Assembly (NCBI GenBank): GCA_943787575.1
Contig: CALSMY010000003.1
Coordinates: forward strand, 1-64,000
DNA: 64,000 bases
DNA from: an uncultured Opitutales bacterium
Lineage (GTDB): Bacteria > Verrucomicrobiota > Verrucomicrobiia > Opitutales > Seribacteraceae
Reading direction: 5' to 3'
Below the pieces are notes generated by a model. It was not told the DNA's origin. It saw nothing but the letters and a program-made list of their open reading frames with translations, and did no database searches. Of this stretch, positions 38,579 through 42,864 are shown one piece after another. The position numbers and the translations under genes were made by a program. The first letter of the stretch is position 1; each line of letters opens with the position of its first letter.

Positions 38579-40591
38579 TTATCCGTGAGCATCTGCTTGC
38601 TGAACTGCCTGATCGGCATCAAACCAGGGTGTAATCGTTTGTAAGTCCTGATCGTTCCCGATGCAGTACACAAGATCTCCGGTTGCAAAAGTGGTATCGG
38701 CTAGACGATGGACAATCAAAGATTCCCCCTGTCGAATGGCGAGAATGGAAACACCCGATGTTTCAGCAAGGTCAAGGGTCCGGGGGGATTTTCCGATTAC
38801 CCGGCTGCCTTCAGTTACGAGCAATTTCTCAACCTTCAAGTCCTTGAGCCCCGCATGGGCTGCCAGGGGGAGGGGGGAGGAGGAATGCTCGCGGTCGGAA
38901 TGCATCGTTTCTTCCCGTGCCTGATCAATTTCACGGACAATTAAATTTCGCGGAATCTTGAGCTGTCGTAGAACGAGGGAAAGAATTTCCAGCCCTCCTT
39001 CCACTTCAGATGCGACCACATTGACCGGGACGACTTTGCTGAGTTGTTCCGATCCACGCATATATTGAGTGCGGACAAAGACGGGTGCTTTCACCTTCAT
39101 TCGGCCAATAGTGGAGATAACCCGCTCAATTGCCTGGTTGTCATTAATCATAATGACGATGGCCCGACAGGTTTCGACATGGGCATGTCCAAGTGCTTCT
39201 TCACTGGTGGCATCAGCATAATAGACTGGATCACCCAGCCGGCGACCAAGCTCAACATTGTCCGAGTTCATCTCCAGGGCAACCGCTTCAATATCTAAGC
39301 GGCTCAAACTGTTGGTCAGTAAACGTCCGGCCAGCCCGTAGCCAATGACCACCACATGGTCGTTGTGACCGACGGTGCGGTCTTCCAGTTCTTCGGCACT
39401 GCGAGCCCGTAGCAATTTAGCCAGAGGGTCGAGGGCCCGTTCTCCGGCAGTAAAGTGAGGAGCTTTGTAAACCAGTAAGGGAGTGAGGAACATGCTGAGA
39501 ATTCCAGCGTTGAGCAGAGAGCCAATTTCAGATTCGAGCACCACCCCCTCGTGGATAGCGAGTTGGAGGATCACAAATCCAAACTCTCCAAACTGGGCCA
39601 GGCCCACCCCGGCCAACCAGGCAGCCCGGGGAGGGAAACGCATAAAGGATGCGGCAAGGATGGCAATCAATCCTTTTCCTCCAATAAAAGCGAGAAGAAG
39701 AAGGCCAACTTCTACAGGCTTGTCGGCGAGTAATTGAAAATCAAAAAACATCCCCAGGGAAACAAAGAAGAAACTTACAAAGACATCGCGCAGAGGAAGA
39801 ATGTCTCCCATCGCCCGATGGCGGAAATCGGTATCGGCCACAATCATGCCGGCAAGGAAGGCACCCAGGGCCAGGGATAGACCGGTTAGGGAGGTAAGGT
39901 AAGCGGTTCCAATACAAAGGCAAAGCACAGTAAGGATAAAGACTTCATTACTGCGGCTTGCATCCACCCAGCGAAAGAGTAAGGGAACTAATTTGCGGGA
40001 GGCGGCAAAGAGCAGGGTAACCATGAGGGCGGCCTTGGCCAAAGCTATCCCAATTGCCTGCCAGGTCTCAGGCTTATCCAGCCCAAACGAAAGCAAGGGA
40101 ACGATGAGAACCATGGGAACGATGCAAAGATCCTGGAAGATCAAGGTACCCACAATAAAACGTCCATGGGGTGCGTCTAATTCTCCACGCTCTCCAAGGG
40201 TGCGAAGAACCAAGGCGGTACTGGATAAGGCAAAGACAAAGCCGTATACAATTGCCTGTGGAGTGGAGAGACCAAAACCTATACAGATTGCGAAGGTTAC
40301 AAGTGCTGTCACGCTCACTTGGATCAAGCCACCAAGGGCAACCTGGCGGAAGATATTACGCAAGCGAGCGAGAGAAAATTCCAGGCCGATTGTAAAGAGC
40401 AGGAAAATTACGCCCACTTCAGCAATCACCTCAATGGCTTCGGGATCGTGGGCAAGTGAAAGTGCATTGGGGCCAACGAGGGCACCCGAGAGTACAAGCC
40501 CGGCAACCACCGGAAGTTTAAGTCGCCCGAGAATAAGGGTGACCAACACGCTAACGGTGGCAATAACGGTAATTTCCTGAAGCAAATGCAT
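38579..40591 (-). CDS. CPA2-family cation:proton antiporter with RCK (TrkA) domains
   Basis: A 670-residue protein with about twelve to thirteen membrane segments in the first 400 residues: LSGALVGPNALSL, FLLFTIGLEFSLARLRNIF, SSTALVLRTLGERGE. The latter two are typical of KefB/YbaL-like exchangers. A Rossmann TrkA-N domain follows (VVIGYGLAGRLLTNSLSRL) and then a TrkA-C domain near the end. Such proteins exchange K+ or Na+ for H+ and are gated by nucleotides. ATG 40591 starts MHLLQEITVIATVSVL; an earlier ATG at 40621 would add ten unrelated residues. Confidence 0.9.
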   Translation of the reverse strand: MHLLQEITVIATVSVLVTLILGRLKLPVVAGLVLSGALVGPNALSLAHDPEAIEVIAEVGVIFLLFTIGLEFSLARLRNIFRQVALGGLIQVSVTALVTFAICIGFGLSTPQAIVYGFVFALSSTALVLRTLGERGELDAPHGRFIVGTLIFQDLCIVPMVLIVPLLSFGLDKPETWQAIGIALAKAALMVTLLFAASRKLVPLLFRWVDASRSNEVFILTVLCLCIGTAYLTSLTGLSLALGAFLAGMIVADTDFRHRAMGDILPLRDVFVSFFFVSLGMFFDFQLLADKPVEVGLLLLAFIGGKGLIAILAASFMRFPPRAAWLAGVGLAQFGEFGFVILQLAIHEGVVLESEIGSLLNAGILSMFLTPLLVYKAPHFTAGERALDPLAKLLRARSAEELEDRTVGHNDHVVVIGYGLAGRLLTNSLSRLDIEAVALEMNSDNVELGRRLGDPVYYADATSEEALGHAHVETCRAIVIMINDNQAIERVISTIGRMKVKAPVFVRTQYMRGSEQLSKVVPVNVVASEVEGGLEILSLVLRQLKIPRNLIVREIDQAREETMHSDREHSSSPLPLAAHAGLKDLKVEKLLVTEGSRVIGKSPRTLDLAETSGVSILAIRQGESLIVHRLADTTFATGDLVYCIGNDQDLQTITPWFDADQAVQQADAHG

Positions 40592-40748
40592 TGGGCAATC
40601 ATCTGAAGGATGAGTGGTCAAAAGGACAACCCGAAAGCTTTAAAATTTTGGGAAAATTATTTGTTTCAAGCATGAGAGAAATTCATCCTACCCCGGCCGG
40701 GCAAAAAAGGTGAAGAAATTACACTCAATTCGAGGTTGAAAGTACGAT

Positions 40749-40764
40749 TGGCACGCCTGATGCA
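40749..40764 (+). promoter_or_regulatory. Candidate sigma-54 (RpoN) promoter
   Basis: TGGCACGCCTGATGCA has the -24 GG and -12 GC elements with the required ten bases between them and differs from the TGGCACG-N4-TTGCA consensus at one base. It lies 40 bases upstream of the small membrane peptide gene at 40804, so a transcript would start near 40775. Confidence 0.5.
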
Positions 40765-40803
40765 AAATCAATTTTACTGAATAATCGTTACCAGTAAAAA
40801 ATT

Positions 40804-40926
40804 ATGGAAATAAACAATGATATAAATAAAGAGAGATCTGATGAAGTGGTTTGGTTAAAAAGTTTGTGCTGGGGGATGGGACTAGCATTATTTGCGGTGA
40901 GCTTCCTTGGATTAATGAACCTGTAA
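40804..40926 (+). CDS. 40-residue single-span membrane peptide
   Basis: A short ORF from ATG 40804 to TAA 40924-40926 encoding a charged N-terminus (MEINNDINKERSDE) followed by a hydrophobic segment (LCWGMGLALFAVSFLGLMNL) that would span the membrane and end at the C-terminus. The position after a sigma-54-like promoter and the layout argue for a real gene, though no clear Shine-Dalgarno precedes it and I know no family. It sits in the 440-base gap between the divergent antiporter and typA. Confidence 0.45.
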   Translation: MEINNDINKERSDEVVWLKSLCWGMGLALFAVSFLGLMNL

Positions 40927-41031
40927 AAAAGCAGTTGATGATTAGTCTTTGGTGAGGCTAAAAATTAATTCATTTGGAGTGTAAGCTTGCCTTGCCAATG
41001 GGGAATGAAGTCGATACTTTTGACCGCTTGC

Positions 41032-42864
41032 ATGAATTCCGCCGCACCACATTCCACAAATATTCGTAACCTCGCGATCATCGCCCATGTTGATCATGGA
41101 AAGACCACTTTGGTTGATCAACTACTTAGGCAGTCCGGTGTCTTCCGAGATAACCAGGCAATCGATGAACGGGCGATGGACTCGATGGACCAGGAGCGCG
41201 AGCGCGGAATTACCATCAAAGCGAAGAACACTTCCGTACGCTGGAAGGATTATTTAATCAATGTAGTCGACACCCCAGGGCATGCTGATTTTGGCGGCGA
41301 GGTTGAACGGGTAATGAAGATGGTGGACGGTGTCATGTTGGTGGTGGACTCCCATGAAGGTCCACAGGCTCAGACCCGTTTCGTTTTGCAAAAGGCCTTG
41401 GCTGCCGGATTGTTACCGGTGGTATTCGTCAATAAGATTGACCGGCCCAATGCTGAGCCTGCCAAGATGCAGGATAAGGTGTTGGAACTCTTTCTGGAAC
41501 TGGAAGCCACTGACGAACAGTTCAATGCCCCCTTTCTTTTTGGTAGTGCGAAGGAAGGCTTTGCTAAAGCTTCCCTGGAAGATGAGAATACCGATATGCT
41601 TCCTCTCTTTCAGGCAATTGTCGACCGTGTGCCTGCTCCGGTTATTGATGATGATCCCAACTTTCGCATGTTGGTAAGCAATGTCGACTGGTCTGACTAT
41701 GTCGGACGAATTGCGGTGGGTAAAGTGCTTTCCGGTAAGGTCAAGGCAGGAGACCCAGTCTGGCGGATCGGTGAGAATGGATCTTCACCCCGGTCCAAGG
41801 TCACAAAAGTATTTGAATACAGTGCTCTGGCTACTCAGGATTTGTCTGAGGGGGTGGCTGGAAATATTGTCGGGGTCGCAGGCTTTGAAGAGGTTGATAT
41901 TGGAGAAACGCTTTCGGGTAGTCCGGATGCTGAGGGTTTACCTTTTGTACAGATTGATCCCCCCACAGTAATGATGTCTTTTTCGGTAAACGACGGACCT
42001 TTGGCAGGACGAGAGGGAGATCGTGTGACCTCCCGTGAAATTCGCGAACGTTTATTTCGCGAAGCCCGTACCAACGTATCGATCAAGGTGGAGGATGGAA
42101 ATGATTCCACAGAATTTAAAGTAAGTGCCCGAGGAGCCATGCAAGTTGCTGTGCTTGTGGAAACAATGAGGCGTGAAGGATTTGAGGTTTTGGTAAGTCG
42201 ACCATCTGTCATTCGCAAGGAAATCGACGGGCGGATGCACGAACCATACGAGACTTTATATTTGGAAGTGCCCGATGAATGCCTCGGTGGATGTATGCAG
42301 GCAGTGGCCAACCGTAAGGGCCAGGTGGACGATATGTCCGCTTCCAATGGATGGACACGTTTACAGGCAATCATGCCCACCCGTGGTTTGATCGGCTTAG
42401 AGTTTGAGGCTCTCAATATTACCAGTGGTCGGGGAATTTTATCCCATCTGTTTTTAGAATACCGCCCGGTAACCGGAGAGATTCGTACCCGTCAAACGGG
42501 AACGCTTGTATCGATGGAAAAAGGTGAGTCTAATACCTATGCACTGCGTAATATAGAAACGCGGGGAAAATTGTTTATTGGTTCAGGGGAAGAAGTCTAT
42601 GAGGGAATGATTGTTGGGGAGAATCCACGGACTGAGGATTTGCCCGTCAATCCGACCAAGGCCAAGCATGTGACCAATCACCGGGCAGCAGGAAGTGACA
42701 AGACCGAAGCTCTGACCCCAGCAATTCGCTTTTCGCTGGAACGGGCGATTGAATATGTCGGTCCCGACGAACTCGTGGAAGTGACTCCTAAATTAATTCG
42801 TCTGCGCAAACGGATTCTTGATTTTAATGCCCGTAAGCGCGAGTCCAAGAAAGTAGCATCCTGA
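41032..42864 (+). CDS. typA: Ribosome-associated GTPase TypA/BipA
   Basis: A 610-residue translational GTPase of the EF-G type. G1 is [16 protein letters not shown], the switch region is [13 protein letters not shown]3 is [13 protein letters not shown] and G4 is VNKIDRPNA. Domain II, EF-G-like domain V (residues around 400-480) and the TypA-specific C-terminal region ([18 protein letters not shown]) are present. It acts on the 50S assembly and stress response. ATG 41032 puts the family-typical [15 protein letters not shown] near the N-terminus; TTG 40987 and ATG 41005 are longer options. Confidence 0.96.

Follow-up and report, generated by a model that had tools for sequence, protein, structure and literature searches.

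Between a divergent KefB/KefC-like antiporter gene and typA in an uncultured Opitutales bacterium lies a short open reading frame (ORF) preceded by a match to the sigma-54 promoter consensus. The locus raises the question of whether that signal serves the ORF, which would then be a gene for a small membrane peptide in its own right, or whether it chiefly serves typA further downstream. The window, by which we mean the whole 64,000-base stretch that was analysed, comprises bases 1-64000 of contig 3 of an assembly (G000) that is 2.1 Mb in size and 85.7% complete. When typA is used as the yardstick, the nearest named relatives are assemblies of uncultured Opitutales and of other Verrucomicrobiota, and from the names of these relatives we read the organism as marine. 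The features discussed are collected in Table 1, where the antiporter start is set at a conserved ATG.

Table 1. Features of the locus between the antiporter gene and typA (window coordinates)
Feature	Coordinates	Strand	Remarks
CPA2 cation/proton antiporter with TrkA domains (KefB/KefC-like)	38579-40591	-	Pfam PF00999, PF02254, PF02080; divergent neighbour, outside cassette
Probable enhancer / upstream activating site, ATGA-N7-TCAT	40672-40686	+	Centre about -96 from predicted start; conserved half-sites
Sigma-54-type (-24/-12) promoter, TTGGCAC-GCCTG-ATGCAAA	40748-40766	+	11/12 consensus positions; 0/400 shuffles as good
Small ORF, 40 aa	40804-40926	+	ATG...TAA; N-terminal half polar; single transmembrane segment; G-x-x-[SN]-L conserved at the end
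Promoter-like typA block, TTGCCA-N15-GATACT	40992-41018	+	Same position in 8/8 genus members; outside cassette
typA (translational GTPase TypA/BipA)	41032-42864	+	NCBIfam TIGR01394, 826.7 bits vs cut-off 757.3; downstream neighbour, outside cassette

The initial annotation had proposed a sigma-54-type promoter ahead of a small membrane-peptide gene. This proposal is supported by conservation, by dN/dS, by comparison with shuffled sequence and by a helix model, and we consider it highly likely that the locus holds a sigma-54-controlled gene for a small membrane peptide. Gene finders and family libraries overlook small membrane peptides, and here it is the regulatory DNA that reveals one which is very probably real and, as the conserved elements suggest, tightly switched.

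The small ORF and its relatives

The 40-residue ORF is present in front of typA where the initial annotation placed it, and conservation in relatives, which had been named there as a check on the gene, was found. A first protein search of 57 genomes detected the ORF in five other members of the genus with E-values of 8e-5 or better, and elsewhere weakly. Direct reading of the sequence upstream of typA gave copies in 7/8 genus members and in six genomes of a sister genus (three of the 46 typA regions were without the GTPase motif and were omitted from this upstream analysis). A profile built from 19 copies and run against 372 genomes of the order then returned 20 strong matches (E-values of at most 8e-6), the window copy included, each spanning the full profile. 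All 20 fall in one family, with matches in seven of the eight members of the window's genus and in 13 of the 27 sister-genus genomes; the seven genomes of two further genera gave no strong match. Weaker matches among the 372 genomes, for which the next E-values were 4e-4 and worse, lay mostly inside longer frames and were dropped. The gene is dispensable, since strong matches were lacking in 14 of the 27 genomes of the sister genus, a figure that includes one genome with a copy cut by a contig end (G010) and one with a decayed copy (G035).

Several properties of the ORF are those of a protein-coding gene: (i) its length is 40-41 residues in all 19 listed copies; (ii) of the 11 pairs compared, eight gave dN/dS values of 0.09-0.40 (Nei-Gojobori, own script) and three gave no value as synonymous sites were saturated; and (iii) M1, G36 and L40 are invariant across 19 aligned rows and V32 is nearly so. 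By these measures the ORF evolves as a coding sequence and is under purifying selection. They also bear on the possibility that the transcript is a sigma-54-dependent small RNA in which the peptide is incidental. Such RNAs exist, GlmY being an example (PMC3162934), but in the present case the substitutions obey codon constraint, the length of the ORF and its protein pattern are kept, and there is no credible Rfam match; the single match obtained was taken as chance because it fell below the cut-off (29.8 vs 48.6 bits, E 0.32). We regard a small RNA as an extremely improbable explanation of the locus.

The structure predicted for the one sequence modelled is a single helix from residue 2 to residue 39 (mean pLDDT 90), and the hydropathy maximum is 1.84-2.67 in the 13 typA-linked copies. 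No credible relative of the peptide was found in Pfam, NCBIfam or the PDB, and the plasmid and phage records searched contained no match to it. A clear ribosome-binding site was not found before the start codon in four genomes (G000, G001, G007 and G003). A literature search by title returned nothing on this peptide or on sigma-54-controlled small membrane peptides in Verrucomicrobiota, and the gene is apparently undescribed.

The promoter and a phased upstream repeat

The match on which the initial annotation was built, TGGCACG-N4-ATGCA at 40749-40764, was said to have the correct spacing and this was borne out; within the full site, TTGGCACGCCTGATGCAAA, the distance from GG to GC is 10 bases, as is proper for sigma-54. 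Counting from the -24 G, transcription is predicted to start at about 40775. The motif taken alone is no rarer than expected by chance in 64 kb, with six matches to TGGCACGNNNNTTGCW at two or fewer mismatches in the window versus 8.28 expected from shuffles, and the case therefore rests on conservation. When position ahead of the start codon is taken into account, none of 400 shuffles of the region upstream of the ORF scores as well as the site.

A sigma-54-like site lies 44-58 bases before the start codon in 19 of the 20 copies, and in these 19 the best site at -75 to -38 matches 9-12 of 12 positions, with 0-9 of 400 shuffles scoring as well. The exception is G030, where no sigma-54 site was recognisable (7/12 positions, 130/400 shuffles as good). 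The -12 box is imperfect in most copies, where A or G, not T, precedes TGCA, and it is broken in three sister-genus genomes (TGTA or TGAA in G023, G015 and G017). In an alignment of the eight members of the window's genus, TTGGCAC-N6-TGCA is kept in all seven that carry the ORF and is absent from the one that does not (G005). The boxes are identical in 7/7 genus copies versus 36% identity over the 25 bases downstream. Restricting the comparison to four diverged genus members leaves the boxes (11 positions) 100% identical, with 47% identity in the spacer, 31% over the 25 bases downstream and 37% between the sigma-54 site and an inverted repeat located further upstream.

This inverted repeat, ATGA-N7-TCAT, was absent from the initial annotation; we spotted it by eye in upstream regions of the sister genus and then scored it in the same sequences. 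It matches at 8/8 positions in 13 of 20 copies, at 7/8 in five and at 6/8 in two. With a search window of -95 to -67, the repeat starts 76-77 bp upstream of the sigma-54 site in 7/7 copies from the window's genus and 87-89 bp upstream in 13/13 copies from the sister genus. About 11 bp, or one helical turn, separates the two spacings, which is what would be expected if the activator has to face the polymerase. Widening the search to -150 to -25 (19 copies, G030 omitted) left the expected place among the best in 19/19 copies and as the sole best in 15. In the four diverged genus members the half-sites are 100% identical versus 31% for the repeat spacer. The G029 copy, which was found later through the protein profile and after the motifs had been defined, has both elements in place (9/12 and 7/8 positions) and constitutes a small out-of-sample test of both motifs. 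The copies are related and are not independent draws, and the contrast with diverged flanks is therefore the better argument.

The bipartite pattern of repeat plus promoter occurs at a single place in the 2.1-Mb genome G000, namely this site. In 42 genomes of the family it occurs at 33 places, 12 of which are at the peptide gene, and the reversed pattern occurs at 11. The alignments show that the phasing of promoter and inverted repeat is preserved, and the repeat is probably the binding site of a sigma-54 activator. For a gene of only 40 codons in uncultured bacteria, strict conservation of promoter and enhancer together with helical phasing is evidence of unusual strength. The result also suggests a general search, in which orphan sigma-54 promoters with phased enhancer repeats are collected and the next 150 bases are inspected for a short ORF.

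A cassette that need not accompany typA

Taken together, the putative activator site, the -24/-12 promoter and the gene for a single-pass membrane peptide of 40-41 residues make up a single-gene cassette of about 255 bases. In G005 there are approximately 280 fewer bases between the antiporter gene and typA, and repeat, promoter and ORF are gone together. G035 holds a decayed copy (L083), in which the ORF before typA is recognisable and its frame is kept, the start codon is lost and no sigma-54 site was recognised. For 13 of the 20 copies, typA is the next gene downstream and is read from the same strand. Cassette and typA are on different contigs in four genomes (G023, G015, G017 and G029), another ORF intervenes between them in G034, and typA was not found within the stretch fetched around the cassette in G057 and G030. 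Judged by these placements, the cassette can occupy other loci.

The initial annotation had also raised the prospect that a continuing transcript would place typA under sigma-54 control, for which we found no support. A related explanation is that the signal chiefly drives typA and that the ORF encodes a leader peptide in the typA 5' region. The same-strand position directly upstream of typA in 13 of 20 copies fits this explanation, and a scan of the window found no terminator between the ORF and typA, so that some transcripts may read through into typA. Set against this are the four cassettes that do not share a contig with typA, the clean loss in G005, and the fact that typA occurs without the cassette in most genomes searched. 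Furthermore, a promoter-like block adjacent to typA persists where the cassette has been lost: TTGCCA-N15-[GT]ATACT is kept in 8/8 genus members, the cassette-less G005 included, and a looser form is present in 14 of 31 typA regions examined. We infer that this block may be a promoter, in guarded terms because its 15-base spacing is short and a sigma-70 scan did not report it. Given that the cassette is found away from typA and that typA keeps a promoter-like block of its own, we rejected typA control and the leader-peptide reading, the latter being in our estimate quite unlikely.

As an observation on typA itself, if the conserved block within 40992-41032 is the typA promoter, the typA leader would be only about 7 bases long.

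Sigma-54, its activators and a possible role

The presence of rpoN in the genome was a further check named in the initial annotation, and here the outcome was mixed. Neither RpoN domain was found in G000 (86% complete), and PF04552 was also not found in G001 (92% complete); rpoN is present in 6/8 genus members, and RpoN in 50 of 57 genomes overall. The rpoN neighbourhood of G004 examined spans 5.7 kb (L137:2801-8500); by our reading of its ORFs, it runs from a gene resembling that of alanine racemase past a protein kinase-like one. At the DNA level this stretch was matched nowhere in G000 or G001, and in G007 it gave two matches of 69-72% identity. Since the rpoN neighbourhood as a whole is missing from an 86% complete assembly, an assembly gap is the simplest explanation, and the absence of rpoN from G000 is most likely of this kind. 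We also considered that rpoN has been lost from the lineage, leaving the promoter as a relic and the peptide gene silent in G000. The missing domains in G000 and G001 would be accounted for in this way, but the loss of an entire neighbourhood is gap-like, G000 retains three sigma-54 activators whose frames are open, both G000 and G001 have undamaged sigma-54 boxes, the promoter of the ammonium transporter gene amt is likewise intact, and dN/dS against the rpoN-bearing G007 is 0.13. A relic is thus, in our judgement, very improbable, and from the conserved boxes we infer that sigma-54 is used at the peptide promoter.

A near perfect match between the presence of sigma-54 and that of its activators has been described (PMC3162934). 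The three activators kept in G000 are NtrC-type enhancer-binding proteins (EBPs) with E-values below 1e-69, and EBPs are present in 42/42 family genomes. An attempt to assign the activator by presence and absence failed, as EBPs are family-wide and unevenly recovered in the genus assemblies. The motif ATGA-N7-TCAT was not found upstream of ten EBP genes, these being the ones, of 20 given, for which a frame was located.

What we suggest about the activator, and about the topology, function and partner of the peptide, is a working model. An NtrC-type EBP, activated by a signal, would bind ATGA-N7-TCAT near -96 or, in the sister genus, near -107, and would be carried by DNA looping to sigma-54 RNA polymerase at TTGGCAC-N5-ATGCA. 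Hydrolysis of ATP would then open the promoter, and transcription from about 40775 would yield the peptide. The peptide would be inserted as one helix, with its N-terminus probably inside and the conserved G-x-x-[SN]-L terminus on the opposite face, and might serve a membrane protein as its regulator or accessory subunit under specific conditions. The assignment to a membrane complex, in either of these two capacities, is tentative, falling somewhat short of an even chance; it is nevertheless the likeliest role, with a membrane-active growth brake as the main rival. More broadly, we put at an even chance the view that the cassette is a self-contained single-gene sigma-54 regulon, consisting of enhancer site, -24/-12 promoter and the gene for a 40-residue membrane peptide, the peptides forming a new family with no known relatives. 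On this view the cassette is kept, moved or lost as one unit in marine Opitutales and provides a fast membrane-level response to, for example, nitrogen or envelope stress.

There is precedent for the individual parts of this model. The genes glnA and amtB and the psp operon are controlled by sigma-54 and an EBP, and the arrangement described here resembles theirs in having a -24/-12 site with 10 bases from GG to GC, an inverted repeat approximately 100 bp upstream and phase-dependent spacing. PspG and PspB of the phage-shock response are likewise small proteins of the membrane whose control involves sigma-54 and an EBP; they differ from the peptide in being about twice as long, the peptide has no family match, and none of the three G000 EBPs passes the PspF cut-off. 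Regulatory small membrane proteins include KdpF, CydX, AcrZ and MgtS. The peptide resembles these, and YohP as presented in PMC12719787, in having fewer than about 50 residues and one transmembrane helix and in its apparently condition-controlled expression. It differs from them in that no relation to Pfam, NCBIfam or PDB entries was found, in its confinement within the order to one Opitutales family, and in lying under a sigma-54-type promoter with its own candidate enhancer.

Under the growth-brake alternative, the peptide would be a small hydrophobic toxin induced by stress, either as part of a type I toxin-antitoxin pair or as some comparable arrester of growth. The size of the peptide and its single hydrophobic helix fit type I toxins, although a dedicated activator site is atypical of them. 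An antisense RNA is unsupported, as the one minus-strand promoter-like match (40798-40771) is within shuffled expectation, and the only Rfam match is sub-threshold. The presence of the gene is patchy, as a toxin might be, but no match was found on plasmids or phages. Premature YohP in E. coli, as reported in PMC12719787, slows growth and lowers membrane potential, and this speaks for the toxin reading. On balance we think a toxin unlikely and favor a regulator or accessory subunit.

Sigma-54 regulons, those of Opitutia included, have been analysed by COG in PMC12316311, and that analysis would be expected to miss a peptide that has no COG. The cassette opens a way into sigma-54 regulation in Verrucomicrobiota. 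As in the glnA/amtB/psp type, G000 carries an amt gene (ammonium transporter, TIGR00836 above cut-off) with its own sigma-54-type promoter (L120:1501-1519, G000:C8). Genes of this sort are common targets of sigma-54, and the amt promoter adds to the case for sigma-54 control of the peptide gene. The amt gene differs from the peptide gene in that ATGA-N7-TCAT is found at 0/4 of the amt promoters aligned. The four eboE promoters aligned also have no perfect ATGA-N7-TCAT, and with both amt and eboE lacking it, the peptide gene need not be a nitrogen gene. A partial match, TGA-N7-TCA, starts at -79 in two of the four eboE promoters, and eboE and the peptide gene may have an activator in common.

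The amt promoter is present in four genus genomes (L120, L113, L130 and L131) and has conserved upstream stretches of its own that are unlike ATGA-N7-TCAT. The sigma-54-type promoter before eboE, which encodes a metabolite traffic protein (NF035939, 437 vs 250 bits), is strongly conserved in four genus genomes (L106, L109, L118 and L119; position 1501), and a connection between sigma-54 and the ebo genes might merit attention. Finally, a nearly palindromic sigma-54-like site, TTGGCAC...GTGCCAA (L128:1501-1519, G000:C16; also L121), lies 24 bases before an ORF that, by our reading, looks like glycogen phosphorylase.
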